26,827 bases of DNA from a virus. The translations under genes and the position numbers were made by a program. Positions 9,442 through 16,239 of the stretch are shown here, piece by piece. Positions within the stretch are counted from its first letter, which is position 1. The number at the start of each line of letters is the position of its first letter. Where the stretch lies: the IMG/VR virus record IMGVR_UViG_3300044633_000326, positions 1 through 26,827 of that record; one strand, written 5' to 3'. The notes under the pieces were generated by a model, which worked only from the letters and a program-made list of their open reading frames with translations, was not told the DNA's origin and made no database searches.

Positions 9442-9476
9442 ATTATTAGAATTTAAACAAAGTTAAAGAAATTATA

Positions 9477-10984: not shown

Positions 10985-12097
10985 TCACAAAGTTACTCCG
11001 TTCTTTTTGATTATCAATGATGGGTCAAGTTTCTTCATTCTATCAACAATAACTTGGCAGTACTTTGGGTCAAGTTCCATTATATAACCAACCCTTTTAA
11101 GTTGATGAACACCTGCTAAAGTAGAACCGCTACCACCAAATAAGTCAAGTATATTTTTTGCGTTTTTATGGTTACCTAATGCACGAGCAGATAATTCAAT
11201 TGGTTTTTGTGTTGGATGCATATACTTGCTATCCTTTTTAATTTCCCATAAATCGCTTTCGTTATTTATTCCTTCATCTAACTTACCTTCAAAAAAGCAA
11301 AATTCGTGTTGATGCCTATATCCTCTTCCTAAACCAAATACATTTTTAGCCCATACAATACAAGCATTTAATTCAAAGTGTTTTTGTAGTGTACCATAAA
11401 ACTTCCAATTGCACCATATATACTTTAATGGTATTTGTAGTGTATGAACAGTTTGAGCAAATTCTTCTATAAATTTATCAAAGTCTTCCGTTTTTAAGTC
11501 ATCATTTTCAATTACATCAAACTTACCACTTCTACCATTAAAACCTACATTGTAAGGTGGGTCTGTAAATAACATATCAGCCTTTTGTCCGTTCATTAGC
11601 TTTGCCACTTGGTCGCTATCCGTACTATCCCCACAAAGCAATCTATGTTCGCCTATCTCAAATAAATCCCCTAATACAATATCCGTTTCAGTTCCGCCAT
11701 CAGGTACTGCAAAGTCATCTTCTTCGGCTTCTAAATTGTTTACATCAAAGTTTGGTATGTCTAAACCCCATTCAGTAAGTTCTTCTACGTTCCAAGAATT
11801 TGCCAATTCATCCCAATCCCACTCCCCATATCCTACATTGTCCTTTACAATAAATTCCTTCTTTTGTTCTTCGGTTAAATCTTTCGCTTGTTTTATAGGC
11901 ACATCTTTAAGCCCAGCTTCAATACAAGCCTTTAATCTCATATTGCCACCTAATACCATATTGTTTTCATCAATTACAATTGGTCTTAATTCAAGCATTT
12001 GGGGGAAATCTTGGATTGACTTTACAAGTTGTTTAAACTTAATATCCTTTATAATTCTAGGATTGTTTGGGTTTGGTTTGATTTCGTTTATTAACAT
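10985..12097 (-). CDS. ParB-like domain fused to N6-adenine (or N4-cytosine) DNA methyltransferase
   Basis: A 370-residue two-domain protein. Residues 1 to about 100 are a ParB/Srx-like fold (LINEIKPNPNNPR, then VLGGNMRLKACIEAG with the GGxxR motif). From about 140 on comes a beta-class methyltransferase: MLFTDPPYNVGFNG carries the DPPY catalytic motif, which favours adenine-N6 methylation. HPTQKPIEL and DLFGGSGSTLAG give the SAM-binding motif, and a final ELDPKYCQVIVDR completes it. Such fusions occur next to phage terminase genes and probably protect DNA from host restriction; a link with packaging is only inferred. It starts with a TAATG overlap onto the upstream gene. All catalytic motifs are intact. 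Confidence 0.93.
   Translation of the reverse strand: MLINEIKPNPNNPRIIKDIKFKQLVKSIQDFPQMLELRPIVIDENNMVLGGNMRLKACIEAGLKDVPIKQAKDLTEEQKKEFIVKDNVGYGEWDWDELANSWNVEELTEWGLDIPNFDVNNLEAEEDDFAVPDGGTETDIVLGDLFEIGEHRLLCGDSTDSDQVAKLMNGQKADMLFTDPPYNVGFNGRSGKFDVIENDDLKTEDFDKFIEEFAQTVHTLQIPLKYIWCNWKFYGTLQKHFELNACIVWAKNVFGLGRGYRHQHEFCFFEGKLDEGINNESDLWEIKKDSKYMHPTQKPIELSARALGNHKNAKNILDLFGGSGSTLAGVHQLKRVGYIMELDPKYCQVIVDRMKKLDPSLIIKKNGVTL
10988..11017 (-). promoter_or_regulatory. Candidate Bacteroidota promoter before the terminase genes
   Basis: Minus strand: TTG (11017-11015), 19 nt, TAACTTTG (10995-10988), matching the Bacteroidota consensus. It lies in the last codons of the ParB-methyltransferase gene, about 26 nt upstream of the small terminase start, and would begin the late structural transcript. 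The same 8-mer also occurs inside coding sequence elsewhere, so chance is possible. Confidence 0.45.
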
Positions 12098-14029: not shown

Positions 14030-14751
14030 AGCTGGTTGTTAAAGTGCATCATTAATGAATACTTTTTACATTGTTGTCTCATTGTTTCCTCATCAATTAA
14101 CATATCTTGTGGTCGTTTTGAATCAGCTAAAAATACTGCCCTTACTTTGGCTTTAATATTTTCGCCTTGTTCCTTTGATATTTTAATTTGTTTTCGCTTC
14201 CATAGGTAGTCAAATACCTGATGATTTAAGAACTTCCAATTCTTTTGCTCGGATTTGTTCCAATAATCTTGCTCATCTTTAATAGCTTGTTCCTCATCTA
14301 TTTGCATAGGTATTTGTTTTATTTGTTCTTGTGGTTGTATTTTACTTCTAACTTGTACTGCTATCTTTTTGTATTCAGTCATTACATCACCAAAGAATTT
14401 AGGATTAAATGAACCATAGTTCCTATCTACATCTAAACGACCTAAAACATAAAGTTCAAATGCTGCACCTAATTCCTTTAGTTTAAATATTCCATAATTC
14501 TTTATTACAAAATCAACTAGGAACTGAAATTCAGGGCTTGTGGGTGGAACTGCACCGCTTAATTGAATACAGGTTTTTAAGTGTTCAGCTACTTCAATAC
14601 TGGAACATTTTGATATGTGCATTGTTTGTAAGGCATCATAAATTTTAATCTCGCTTTGGTTCAATGTATTTAAGACTGGCAAGTTGTGTGAAGTTACGCT
14701 CACTGACATTGGGTTTATAACTTGTGGTAGCATTTCGGATAATGATTTCAT
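14026..14751 (-). CDS. Hypothetical replication-region protein, 241 residues
   Basis: Unrecognised. The central region contains SPEFQFLVDFVIKNYGIFKL and ELGAAFELYVLGRLDVDRNY, a pattern that I believe recurs behind replication initiators of Bacteroidota phages. The second half is charged and helical (QAIKDEQDYWNKSEQKNWKF). The most upstream ATG (14751) makes a 107-nt overlap with the preceding gene. In-frame ATGs at 14733 and 14709 shorten it, so the true start is open. It follows the DUF1376-like replication protein and may partner it, for example as a helicase loader; that is only positional inference. Confidence 0.65.
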   Translation of the reverse strand: MKSLSEMLPQVINPMSVSVTSHNLPVLNTLNQSEIKIYDALQTMHISKCSSIEVAEHLKTCIQLSGAVPPTSPEFQFLVDFVIKNYGIFKLKELGAAFELYVLGRLDVDRNYGSFNPKFFGDVMTEYKKIAVQVRSKIQPQEQIKQIPMQIDEEQAIKDEQDYWNKSEQKNWKFLNHQVFDYLWKRKQIKISKEQGENIKAKVRAVFLADSKRPQDMLIDEETMRQQCKKYSLMMHFNNQL

Positions 14752-15334
14752 CGTTAAAAGATTTATTGTTTAAATATGTGGTTGGGTCTTTACGGAATGT
14801 TTTATCAGGTGTTGAATTAACATACTCTTGTACTATTTTTAAAGCTAATTGCTTTTCATCATTTGTCAAAATATTCCATTTAGTAATGGCTTTTTCTTTA
14901 CTAACTTTTTTATCGTAATCATTCCACCATTGTTCAAATTGCCAATCGTGTATTTTAGCTTTAGTTTTATTTATAGTTTTATTTTCATTTATAGTTTCAG
15001 TTTCAGTTTCCATATGCAATGCATATGCTTTGCTAGTGCTATCATTTTTAGGTGATTTAGCGTTATTTCTCCTTGATTCACTAAACTTTTGCCTTCTAAC
15101 TGCTTCATTATACATTCTTTCATTAATAAATGCACCATCTTCAATTTTAAATTTATCCCATATGTCAACATCATATGCAGAGCATATGCTTAACATATCC
15201 TTCTCACTTAATTTGCCTTTTTGATGTTGTAAGCATAATAAACGAATGTATTTACCAACCTGTTCATTAGTCATTGTAAATGTGCCACTCAAGAAATCAC
15301 TTGTGTAAAATAGCACCGCTGGGTCTTTAGCCAT
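14645..15334 (-). CDS. Replication initiation protein (DUF1376-like N-domain, DnaT/primosome-like C-region)
   Basis: A 229-residue protein. The N-terminal 90 residues match the winged-helix DUF1376-type start of phage replication proteins: MAKDPAVLFYTSDFLSGTFT, then EQVGKYIRLLCLQHQKGKLS. A charged linker follows. The C-terminal part is the phage 'W-x-x-Y-P-K' type: FEQWWNDYDKKVSKEKAITK, QLALKIVQEY, then FRKDPTTYLNNKSFNDE, resembling the C-region in DnaT/lambda O-like proteins. It would bind the phage origin or recruit the host helicase. The start is firm because MAKDPA is family-typical. It is preceded by a promoter and a structured leader, with U-rich sequence and no SD site directly before ATG. 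Confidence 0.8.
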   Translation of the reverse strand: MAKDPAVLFYTSDFLSGTFTMTNEQVGKYIRLLCLQHQKGKLSEKDMLSICSAYDVDIWDKFKIEDGAFINERMYNEAVRRQKFSESRRNNAKSPKNDSTSKAYALHMETETETINENKTINKTKAKIHDWQFEQWWNDYDKKVSKEKAITKWNILTNDEKQLALKIVQEYVNSTPDKTFRKDPTTYLNNKSFNDEIIIRNATTSYKPNVSERNFTQLASLKYIEPKRD

Positions 15335-15427
15335 AAAATAAAAAAGGCTCTAGGCATTCCCCCGAGTAGGATTCAGGGTTCAGCTTCGAGCCAATAAGTT
15401 TAAATACGGATATCCTACATCCTTTTA
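15335..15427 (-). promoter_or_regulatory. Structured 5' leader, possible pseudoknot or attenuator
   Basis: About 90 nt of non-coding leader between a strong promoter and ATG 15334. In minus-strand RNA a stem GGCUC (15392-15388)/GAGCC (15350-15346) closes a hairpin with an inner CCC/GGG stem. The 12-nt apical loop contains AUCCUAC (15372-15366). That loop is exactly complementary to GUAGGAU (15418-15412) near the 5' end, which would make a pseudoknot. The hairpin is followed by U6AU4 and then the start codon, so it looks like an intrinsic terminator. No known riboswitch or ribozyme class was recognised. Confidence 0.6.
15346..15392 (-). terminator. Terminator-like hairpin with U-tract 11 nt before a start codon
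   Basis: Stem GGCUC/GAGCC with an internal GC-rich CCC/GGGGG pairing, followed by UUUUUUAUUUU (15345-15335) and then AUG. It could end transcription from the methyltransferase gene or act as a conditional terminator of the downstream gene. GC content of the element stands out from the surrounding sequence. Confidence 0.6.
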
Positions 15428-15459
15428 CAAAAATACTAAACATTAACCATATCTTCAAA
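15428..15459 (-). promoter_or_regulatory. Strong Bacteroidota-type promoter
   Basis: Minus strand: TTTG (15459-15456), 20 nt, TATTTTTG (15435-15428), a full match to TTTG-N19-21-TAnnTTTG. It begins inside the last codons of the cytosine methyltransferase gene. The predicted start, near 15421-15423, places the structured leader at the very 5' end of the transcript. Confidence 0.7.
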
Positions 15460-16239
15460 ACTTTGTATGGCTTTAAAAATCTCATAAGCAACCTGTGGCA
15501 CTACTGCGTTTCCGTAGGCTTTGATTGATTCATTTCGCCATTTAGGAAAGGTAATACTGTCCAATTTATAGGGAAACCCATCATTTCCTCTACAAATGAT
15601 ACTTTCAGTTTTCTCGTTGATTGTCCAACTTTTGTCAAATCTGCTGCCATTTGTCTCAAACTTTTTTGAAGCACTACTCCTTTTAGTAAATGTTTTTGTT
15701 TCCTTTTTTGATATGTTTCTATTTTTACTCCCGTATTCCAATCTTGAGCATTTGGAGTTGGCAATAAACCAAATTCTTTGTCTTTGATGTCTAGCTCCGA
15801 CACCTGCAGCTGGAATAAGAAACGTTTGGACTTCATAGCCTTGCCTTTCCAAGTCATCGCACACTTCGTTGAATACCATTCCCCCATTCCAACTAACAAG
15901 TCCACGAACATTTTCGCCAATAACCCATTTGGGTTTGACCTCTTTAATGCATCGTAACATATGTGGAAAGAGATGTCTTTCATCGGCTTTCCCAAGTCGC
16001 TTTCCTGCACTTGAGTATGGTTGACAAGGGAATCCTCCTGATAGTACATCAATTGTTCCTTCGTGAATAGTGAAGTTTGTTTTTGTGATGTCATTGTAAG
16101 ATTTTGAATTTGGGAAATGGTGGGCTAAAACTTTTTGACCAAATGGATTCCATTCGCAATGGAATATATTATCCCATCCCATCCACTCGGCTGCAAGGTC
16201 AAACCCACCTATTCCACTAAATAATGATGCGTGTGTCAT
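15436..16239 (-). CDS. dcm: DNA cytosine-5 methyltransferase
   Basis: A complete 267-residue C5 methyltransferase. Motif I is LFSGIGGFD (6-14). Motif IV is GGFPCQPYS (68-76) with catalytic C72. Motif VI is GENVRG near 110, motif VIII QRQRIWF near 155, and motifs IX/X are seen in GFPYKLD and AYGNAVVPQ near the C-terminus. The target-recognition region between VIII and IX is short and rich in K and S (SKKETKTFTKRSSASKKFE), so the recognised site cannot be read off. A likely role is to protect phage DNA from host restriction. It starts with an ATGA overlap. Another frame of the same DNA holds a long open ORF (15501-16094). Confidence 0.95.
   Translation of the reverse strand: MTHASLFSGIGGFDLAAEWMGWDNIFHCEWNPFGQKVLAHHFPNSKSYNDITKTNFTIHEGTIDVLSGGFPCQPYSSAGKRLGKADERHLFPHMLRCIKEVKPKWVIGENVRGLVSWNGGMVFNEVCDDLERQGYEVQTFLIPAAGVGARHQRQRIWFIANSKCSRLEYGSKNRNISKKETKTFTKRSSASKKFETNGSRFDKSWTINEKTESIICRGNDGFPYKLDSITFPKWRNESIKAYGNAVVPQVAYEIFKAIQSFEDMVNV
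15501..16094 (-). CDS. Nested ORF overlapping the cytosine methyltransferase (+1 frame)
   Basis: A 197-codon ORF starts at ATG 16094 and lies wholly inside the methyltransferase gene in the +1 frame. At roughly 7 percent stop codons per triplet expected in sequence this AT-rich, 197 open codons are very unlikely by chance. The product looks protein-like. It contains CAMTWKGKAMKSKRFLFQLQ, EFGLLPTPNAQDW and FVEEMMGFPINWTVLPF. From memory, 'LPTPxAxDW' and 'FVExMMGFPxxWT' recur in proteins encoded with or inside phage C5 methyltransferases. It may be an overprinted gene, a relic of a longer enzyme, or a shadow shaped by conservation of the host frame. No separate promoter or SD site is seen. Confidence 0.4.
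   Translation of the reverse strand: MTSQKQTSLFTKEQLMYYQEDSLVNHTQVQESDLGKPMKDISFHICYDALKRSNPNGLLAKMFVDLLVGMGEWYSTKCAMTWKGKAMKSKRFLFQLQVSELDIKDKEFGLLPTPNAQDWNTGVKIETYQKRKQKHLLKGVVLQKSLRQMAADLTKVGQSTRKLKVSFVEEMMGFPINWTVLPFLNGEMNQSKPTETQ

Follow-up and report, generated by a model that had tools for sequence, protein, structure and literature searches.

A conserved leader RNA with a loop-loop contact and a terminator-like end, possibly a portable transcription attenuator, upstream of phage replication initiator-like genes

The window analysed here, the whole 26,827-nucleotide stretch of a 26.8-kb virus record, carries on its minus strand an 88-nt leader (15422-15335) that ends directly before the gene for a replication initiator-like protein. 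Comparison with related leaders indicates that it is a conserved structured cis-acting RNA, since compensatory changes exceed those found in shuffled and slid controls. Hundreds of related uncultured viruses keep a lock between two hairpin loops while its matching letters change, and for this reason the element is almost certainly a working and previously undescribed control element, and in effect a new RNA class. We give nearly, if not quite, an even chance to the reading that this portable cis-regulatory leader RNA acts as a loop-loop-gated transcription attenuator, and regard translational control as the main rival. To our knowledge, early-gene and replication timing in Bacteroidota phages has been little explored at the RNA level, and the leader would offer a defined, testable control point for the onset of phage DNA copying.

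Among cultured phages, the large terminase of the window is nearest to those of Parabacteroides and Phocaeicola phages (∼40% identity), and a promoter of the TAnnTTTG type is in keeping with this, so that the window most likely derives from a phage of Bacteroidota. On the minus strand, a cytosine methyltransferase gene ends with its stop codon at 15436, and the 101 bases from there to the initiator-like ATG (15334) contain only the promoter and the leader. The gene that follows (rep; 14645..15334, minus strand, 229 aa) is the first of its unit and was assigned from PHROG matches to replication initiation protein (PHROG 270, E 2.8e-12) and primosomal protein (phrog_9327, E 1.9e-8); relatives also gave weak DUF1376 matches, below the cut-off. 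Of the exact-consensus promoter noted in the first-pass annotation, the -7 element TATTTTTG (15428..15435, minus strand) is present and matches Bacteroidota TAnnTTTG exactly. In F. johnsoniae, a published study gives the promoter consensus as TAHHTTTG and places many start sites 4-5 nt after the box (PMC6847099), so the predicted transcription start is 15423 or 15422, at the base of the first hairpin.

The leader begins 5 nt past the -7 box with the 5′ hairpin P1 (15408..15422), delimited by sequence, folding and covariation, in which GGAU and AUCC enclose GUAGGAU. These seven nucleotides make up the whole loop (kissing loop 1, 15412..15418). A 15-nt linker (15393..15407) with the conserved motif AACUUAUU (conserved alignment columns 26, 27, 29, 32, and 33) leads to a terminator-like hairpin (15346..15392) supported by folding and covariation. 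The latter is built from P2 (GGCUC/GAGCC), a 3x3 internal loop, P2b (GC/GC), a UGAA/GAAU internal loop with many possible sheared purine pairs, and the 6-bp P3 (CCCUGA/UCGGGG, one U.G among them), whose whole 7-nt loop is AUCCUAC (kissing loop 2, 15366..15372). Covariation identifies both kissing loops. The U-tract UUUUUUAUUUU (15335..15345) lies between P2 and the ATG, and all of these features are on the minus strand. The ∼90-nt structured leader with a GC-rich hairpin, the U6AU4 run (15345-15335) ahead of the ATG, and the 7-nt complementarity between GUAGGAU and AUCCUAC (15418-15412 against 15372-15366, perfect over 7 nt) had all been noted in the first-pass annotation and are where it placed them. 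Its topology needs correction: AUCCUAC had been assigned to a 12-nt loop, which is a 7-nt loop closed by 6 bp, and GUAGGAU to a free 5′ end, which is the complete loop of its own hairpin. Because both partners are hairpin loops, the contact is, as read from the sequence, an intramolecular loop-loop (kissing) complex; of the pseudoknot proposed earlier, the pairing of the loop within the same RNA stands and the simple pseudoknot form does not. Folding of the leader without the kiss is better than that of shuffled sequences (z -2.4; 5 of 200 shuffles equally good), and P2 is predicted to form without it (median pairing probability 0.996).

To assemble homologous leaders, 80 virus loci were fetched via the rep protein, and their upstream regions were inspected. 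Among 33 aligned leaders, 96.4% of cells in the structure including the kiss are paired, with 96.5% for the kissing helix alone, and changes on both sides were found at 20 of 25 pairs overall and at 5 of the 7 kissing pairs. The number of double-change cells, 139, compares with 34.1 in shuffles, and the covariation score, 0.543, with 0.142. When the alignment was slid, pairing dropped to 30-50% (42-50% one column off), compared with 96-99% in register. A 7-nt complementarity within 90 nt is by itself weak evidence, and would fit a chance structure or an alignment artefact, but the covariation and the slid controls allow this explanation to be practically discounted.

A second alignment of 51 distinct leaders, rich in other subfamilies, was fitted to the hairpins and not to the kiss, which is absent from the covariance model (CM); in this alignment 98.8% of cells are paired, kissing cells reach 100%, and the covariation score is 0.622 versus 0.224. 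Pooling 279 CM matches gave 110 distinct leaders, with all seven kissing pairs standard in 109 of them, 12 different kissing sequences, and Watson-Crick pairs in 766 of 770 kissing cells. A structure-blind ranking by mutual information, with an effective number of sequences of ∼14, placed kissing pairs at ranks 1 and 2, and the top 17 pairs all belong to the model. Compensatory changes, to which the first-pass annotation had tied its proposal, are therefore abundant in homologous leaders, and the 7-nt pairing exceeds what chance would give. The only leader failing the kiss (L121, 13869-13959, on the same contig as L032) has the 5′ half of P1 and the promoter replaced by other sequence while P2/P3, the U-tract and rep are retained, and its sequence suggests a natural recombinant or an assembly chimera.

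Within the stems P2, P2b and P3, the 110 distinct leaders hold 91 G-U cells and no A-C cells, which shows that selection acts on the sense-strand RNA. This bears on the alternative that the conserved object is DNA, namely a single-stranded origin or a recombination or endonuclease site. That a replication gene adjoins and that homing endonuclease genes are found beside the leader would suit such a site, but given the G-U cells without A-C and the fixed orientation of promoter and U-tract, we consider it very improbable.

Rfam 15 scans at gathering scores of the whole window and of 12 loci, divergent members included, returned zero matches, in agreement with the first-pass statement that no known RNA class was recognised. 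In a permissive Rfam scan of 181 bases, the best match in the leader region was a chance frameshift element at a sub-threshold E of 3.5. A table in Weinberg 2010 presents candidate structured RNAs of Bacteroidetes and phages (PMC2864571), which resemble the leader in being comparative-genomics motifs, some of them in phages; none of those present in Rfam matches the leader at gathering thresholds. When the leader was compared with cultured phages by blastn, only 4 Providencia records were found, matching terminator-like pieces over 21-28% of the query, and tblastn of rep against cultured phages gave distant matches only. Neither a CM match nor a match to the topology rule described below was present in the records of cultured phages that underlie L203 and L414 or in the fecal clone L202, and for a Porphyromonas phage (L415) the annotation table alone gives a 61-nt gap before the initiator gene. 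Pattern scanning of GTDB contigs turned up two sites, neither with a leader around it nor with a CM match, and no match was obtained among 395 Bacteroidia genomes searched with the CM, an empty result that is little proof. No cultured phage or host genome examined carries the element, and no description of such an element was found in the open-access literature searched.

Many loci were fetched by leader DNA patterns (for one scan, from among the matches listed), and several locus identifiers refer to one contig; because of the pattern-based fetching, locus counts do not measure how common the element is. Loci fetched by protein provide a less biased sample. In this sample, a full leader lies directly upstream of rep in 64 of the 69 loci that reach residue 1, a partial leader in 2 (L004, at a contig end, and L032), and an HNH-like gene stands between leader and rep in 3 (L020, L046, and L047). 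Two further protein searches produced 106 loci, 19 of which were left out, and the CM matched at E ≤0.05 in 43 of the remaining 87. L022, L202 and L203 were without a CM match in the survey of locus sources. A single leader copy per record was found in 19 of 20 long records. The twentieth (G011, 31.5 kb) has equal-scoring leaders at both ends (L112/L174, 124-214 and 31377-31467), as expected, judging from the sequence, if the genome is circular or terminally redundant and the record was opened at rep. All three contigs with two different copies have kissing sequences that differ between the copies, and with such private leader codes two copies in one genome would not have to cross-pair.

An ATG-started ORF follows 278 of the 279 CM matches, the remaining match running off its contig. 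Of these ORFs, 258 group into a single linked cluster of initiator-like proteins with DUF1376-like, Lin1244_N or related N-termini, and the other 20 encode GIY-YIG proteins, HNH or NUMOD4-HNH endonucleases, DNA methyltransferases, one ATPase-GNAT protein, one HTH/DnaD-like protein, and one truncated initiator. The first-pass suggestion that replication onset as such is gated is so far not supported, since genes for homing endonucleases, DNA methyltransferases and the ATPase-GNAT protein have this element before them too. In L046, L020, L263, L272, L297, L193, L098, and L110, the non-initiator gene occupies exactly the space between leader and initiator, and in L204 a promoter-leader-HNH unit lies between two small genes ahead of a NinG-like gene. 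The promoter-leader unit is thus portable, and HNH genes carry it along to other places. Leaders and proteins also reassort: 15 protein N-terminal types are found with 20 leader types (a few of them split by alignment gaps), and the commonest protein type occurs with 11 leader types. Autoregulation through specific binding by the encoded N-terminal domain was considered and is unlikely in view of this free reassortment.

Two loci illustrate the arrangements. L082 (7441-7999) has a complete promoter-leader-NUMOD4/HNH unit between the genes for the terminase large subunit and the portal, where the window has only a 35-base gap (9442-9476); by its sequence, the unit appears to be a homing endonuclease cassette carrying its own copy of the RNA. 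In L158 (1959-3298), two leaders with different kissing sequences stand in series, the first before an ABC-ATPase-like/GNAT protein and the second before a DUF1376-like initiator.

Distant initiator relatives missed by the CM often have the same order of a 5′ hairpin, a linker, a long hairpin with a complementary apical loop, a U-tract and an ATG. Their sequences are wholly different, and those of linker and internal loop are not kept. A topology rule that requires 7 Watson-Crick pairs between two loops, each in a hairpin, and a stem adjoining a T-rich tail recovers 267 of 275 known leaders. It found 17 of 37 distant rep upstreams outside the CM, compared with 47 of 21,897 shuffled-upstream controls; the 37 are not independent, and the 17 matches represent about nine kissing families. 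With the CM match L374 included, 18 of 38 rep upstreams were found, a further 8 (L377, L389, L392, L394, L396, and L403-L405) look alike by eye only, and 12 of the 38 showed no sign of the topology by rule or eye. Because fold order is kept while sequences differ entirely, the common denominator is the topology and not the UGAA/GRAN loop or the linker. The only invariants are then the loop-loop lock, the U-tract and the ATG, which occur before many initiator types and are carried by homing endonucleases. In L385 (ATG at 1175), a long-stem match to the topology, with the kiss GTACGAA, precedes an uncharacterised gene upstream of a leaderless initiator, an arrangement resembling the HNH insertions in L046 and L020.

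The loss of linker and internal-loop sequences in distant relatives is relevant to a metabolite or ion riboswitch, in which the kissing hairpins and the UGAA/GRAN internal loop would form the aptamer and the terminator the expression platform. Riboswitches often contain loop-loop contacts, the CM family has conserved unpaired nucleotides in its linker and internal loop, and the element serves several genes, as riboswitches do. The distant members, however, keep topology, U-tract and ATG without those sequences, the genes served do not come from one pathway, and there is no Rfam match; as no pocket is common to all members, a ligand-sensing riboswitch is rather improbable. Of the attenuator or riboswitch architecture recognised in the first-pass annotation, the structured cis leader with its terminator-like end is retained, and ligand gating is so far not supported, as neither a conserved alternative helix nor a sequence-conserved pocket in distant members was found.

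The placement of the fold relative to the promoter is close to constant. Upstream sequence is available for 108 distinct leaders, and in 99 of them TAnnTT[TC]G ends 3-7 nt before the first pair of P1, which suggests that the RNA starts with the fold; in the other 9, the nearest -7 match is 16-30 nt upstream, so a fold at +1 is not universal. A start at P1, together with the portability of the promoter-leader unit, would be compatible with a 5′ cap-like structure that protects early mRNA from RNases, or with a put-like polymerase-binding RNA that suppresses pausing or termination. Neither role needs a U-tract after the last stem, yet the tract is invariant in outline, and with the 9 leaders whose -7 match is remote we consider such roles about as improbable as a riboswitch.

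The 3′ end has the features of an intrinsic terminator, a G+C-rich stem directly followed by a U-tract. Of the 8 nt that follow P2, 5 or more are T in all 110 distinct leaders, and the first ATG lies 9-13 nt past P2 in all of them. A d'Aubenton-type terminator score is above 0 in 85 of the 110, and some of the 25 leaders below it have interrupted U-tracts. A simple terminator scan of the window, which needs uninterrupted stems and loops of 3-8, did not list the leader hairpin. Compared with other ORFs (150 aa or more), the leader ORFs are distinct: a T-rich window (at least 6 T in 8 nt) lies before 72 of 72 leader ORFs versus 72 of 1114 others, and A at -3 occurs in 8% versus 59%. Their start codons have U at -3 and few A at -6 and -12. 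A study of initiation in F. johnsoniae reports that A-3 and A-6 favour it and that U-3 disfavours it (PMC6847099). By these comparisons, the U-tract departs from the local start-site habit, in a direction that is unfavourable by the F. johnsoniae initiation rules.

These features bear differently on transcriptional and translational control. In the latter, the kissing RNA, 9-13 nt upstream of the AUG in bacteria without Shine-Dalgarno pairing, would sit on the 30S platform and block or position the ribosome, with the U-tract as a single-stranded landing site for S1. The constant distance to the ATG, seen also when the first gene differs, suits this explanation, and a precedent is the replication initiator gene repZ of ColIb-P9, whose translation needs a pseudoknot immediately ahead of the ribosome site (PMC8383071). 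The start context is unfavourable, however, and an A-rich tract would suit ribosomes better while the U-tract is kept; constant spacing could also be inherited when genes swap at the ATG. We regard translational control as unlikely, if clearly less so than the cap-like and riboswitch roles. In favour of attenuation are the constancy of the terminator features, a start context that suits ribosomes poorly, and the fact that the element serves any gene placed behind it. Against it stand the 25 of 110 sub-threshold terminators and the weak tails of some distant members (e.g., UUAAUCUUUUU or UUCUAUU), and the near-constant 9-13 nt to the ATG, which a terminator does not need, points also to translation.

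If the leader is an attenuator, RNA polymerase would transcribe it such that P1 folds, and P3 then folds and kisses P1; as the last strand (GAGCC) emerges, P2 would close at the U-tract. With P2 closed in time, transcription would end in the U-tract and release an RNA of ∼80-88 nt, and otherwise the polymerase would continue into rep. The control point would be the kissing complex, and its reader (polymerase, or a host or phage protein) would most likely sense shape and not sequence, because the kissing sequence is free to change while the 7-bp geometry is fixed. The logic of a two-state attenuator is not visible, since no conserved antiterminator helix was found, and there was no convincing pair from outside the model among the strongest covariation signals.

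Several plasmid and phage RNAs share parts of this design. The kissing of ColE1 RNA I and RNA II involves two 7-nt hairpin loops with all 7 nt paired, which Rop recognises by shape and not by sequence; this contact is intermolecular and concerns a primer RNA, whereas that of the phage leader is intramolecular and in an mRNA leader. The put RNAs of the proteobacterial phage HK022 are short two-hairpin leader RNAs directly behind a promoter, an arrangement that the present leader shares, and we know of neither a U-tract after their hairpins nor loop-loop pairing. Similarly, we know of no U-tract terminator in the repZ leader. In the Staphylococcus plasmid pT181, the gene under attenuator control, repC, is the replication initiator gene, and Novick 1989 is said to be the reference for this antisense attenuator.

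The pT181 leader has a 5′ hairpin, a decisive loop-loop kissing contact and, ahead of the gene, an intrinsic terminator (PMC4878617), and thereby resembles the phage leader, which also lies upstream of an initiator gene. The kissing partner in pT181 is a separate antisense RNA, and an antiterminator is present, whereas the phage leader uses its own 5′ hairpin. The phage leader also lacks antisense -7 boxes above chance (16 of 109 segments versus 14.2 in shuffles, for the TAnnTTTG pattern only), and control by an antisense RNA, which we considered, is for this reason unlikely. The repZ leader of ColIb-P9/IncI-alpha is alike in its long-range loop pairing directly upstream of the ribosome site (PMC8383071); that plasmid system is translational with an antisense competitor, whereas the phage element also serves non-replication genes. 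Overall, the design appears closest to the plasmid initiator leaders with kissing control (pT181 and ColIb-P9), with the partner built into the same RNA. We suggest, more tentatively than attenuation itself, that it represents a new class of phage gene-control RNA, a self-contained pair of hairpins in which the 5′ hairpin of an mRNA pairs loop to loop with the top of its own terminator hairpin. In uncultured Bacteroidota phages it would serve as a portable timing cassette for initiators that homing endonucleases take along with its promoter, and selection would preserve the 7-bp shape of the contact while leaving each leader a private code. Such an RNA would be the cis-acting equivalent of the antisense attenuators that control plasmid rep genes by kissing. 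The hundreds of natural variants with such kissing codes would be a ready set of orthogonal parts.

Other observations concern the genes of the window. Initiators from the window (14645-15334) and from L059, L064, L069, L074, and L079 have nearly identical C-terminal and unrelated N-terminal parts, which points to domain swapping just behind the leader. A long ORF of 197 aa (15501-16094, minus strand) overlaps, in a different frame, the cytosine methyltransferase gene, and since similar sequence recurs in L098, L149, and L297, it may be a real overlapping gene. A 113-aa phage protein (17937-18278, minus strand) is for the most part a DnaA C-terminal DNA-binding domain (PF08299, E 8e-25), and at 10985-12097 (minus strand) a ParB-like N-terminal part is fused to an N6/N4 DNA methyltransferase.
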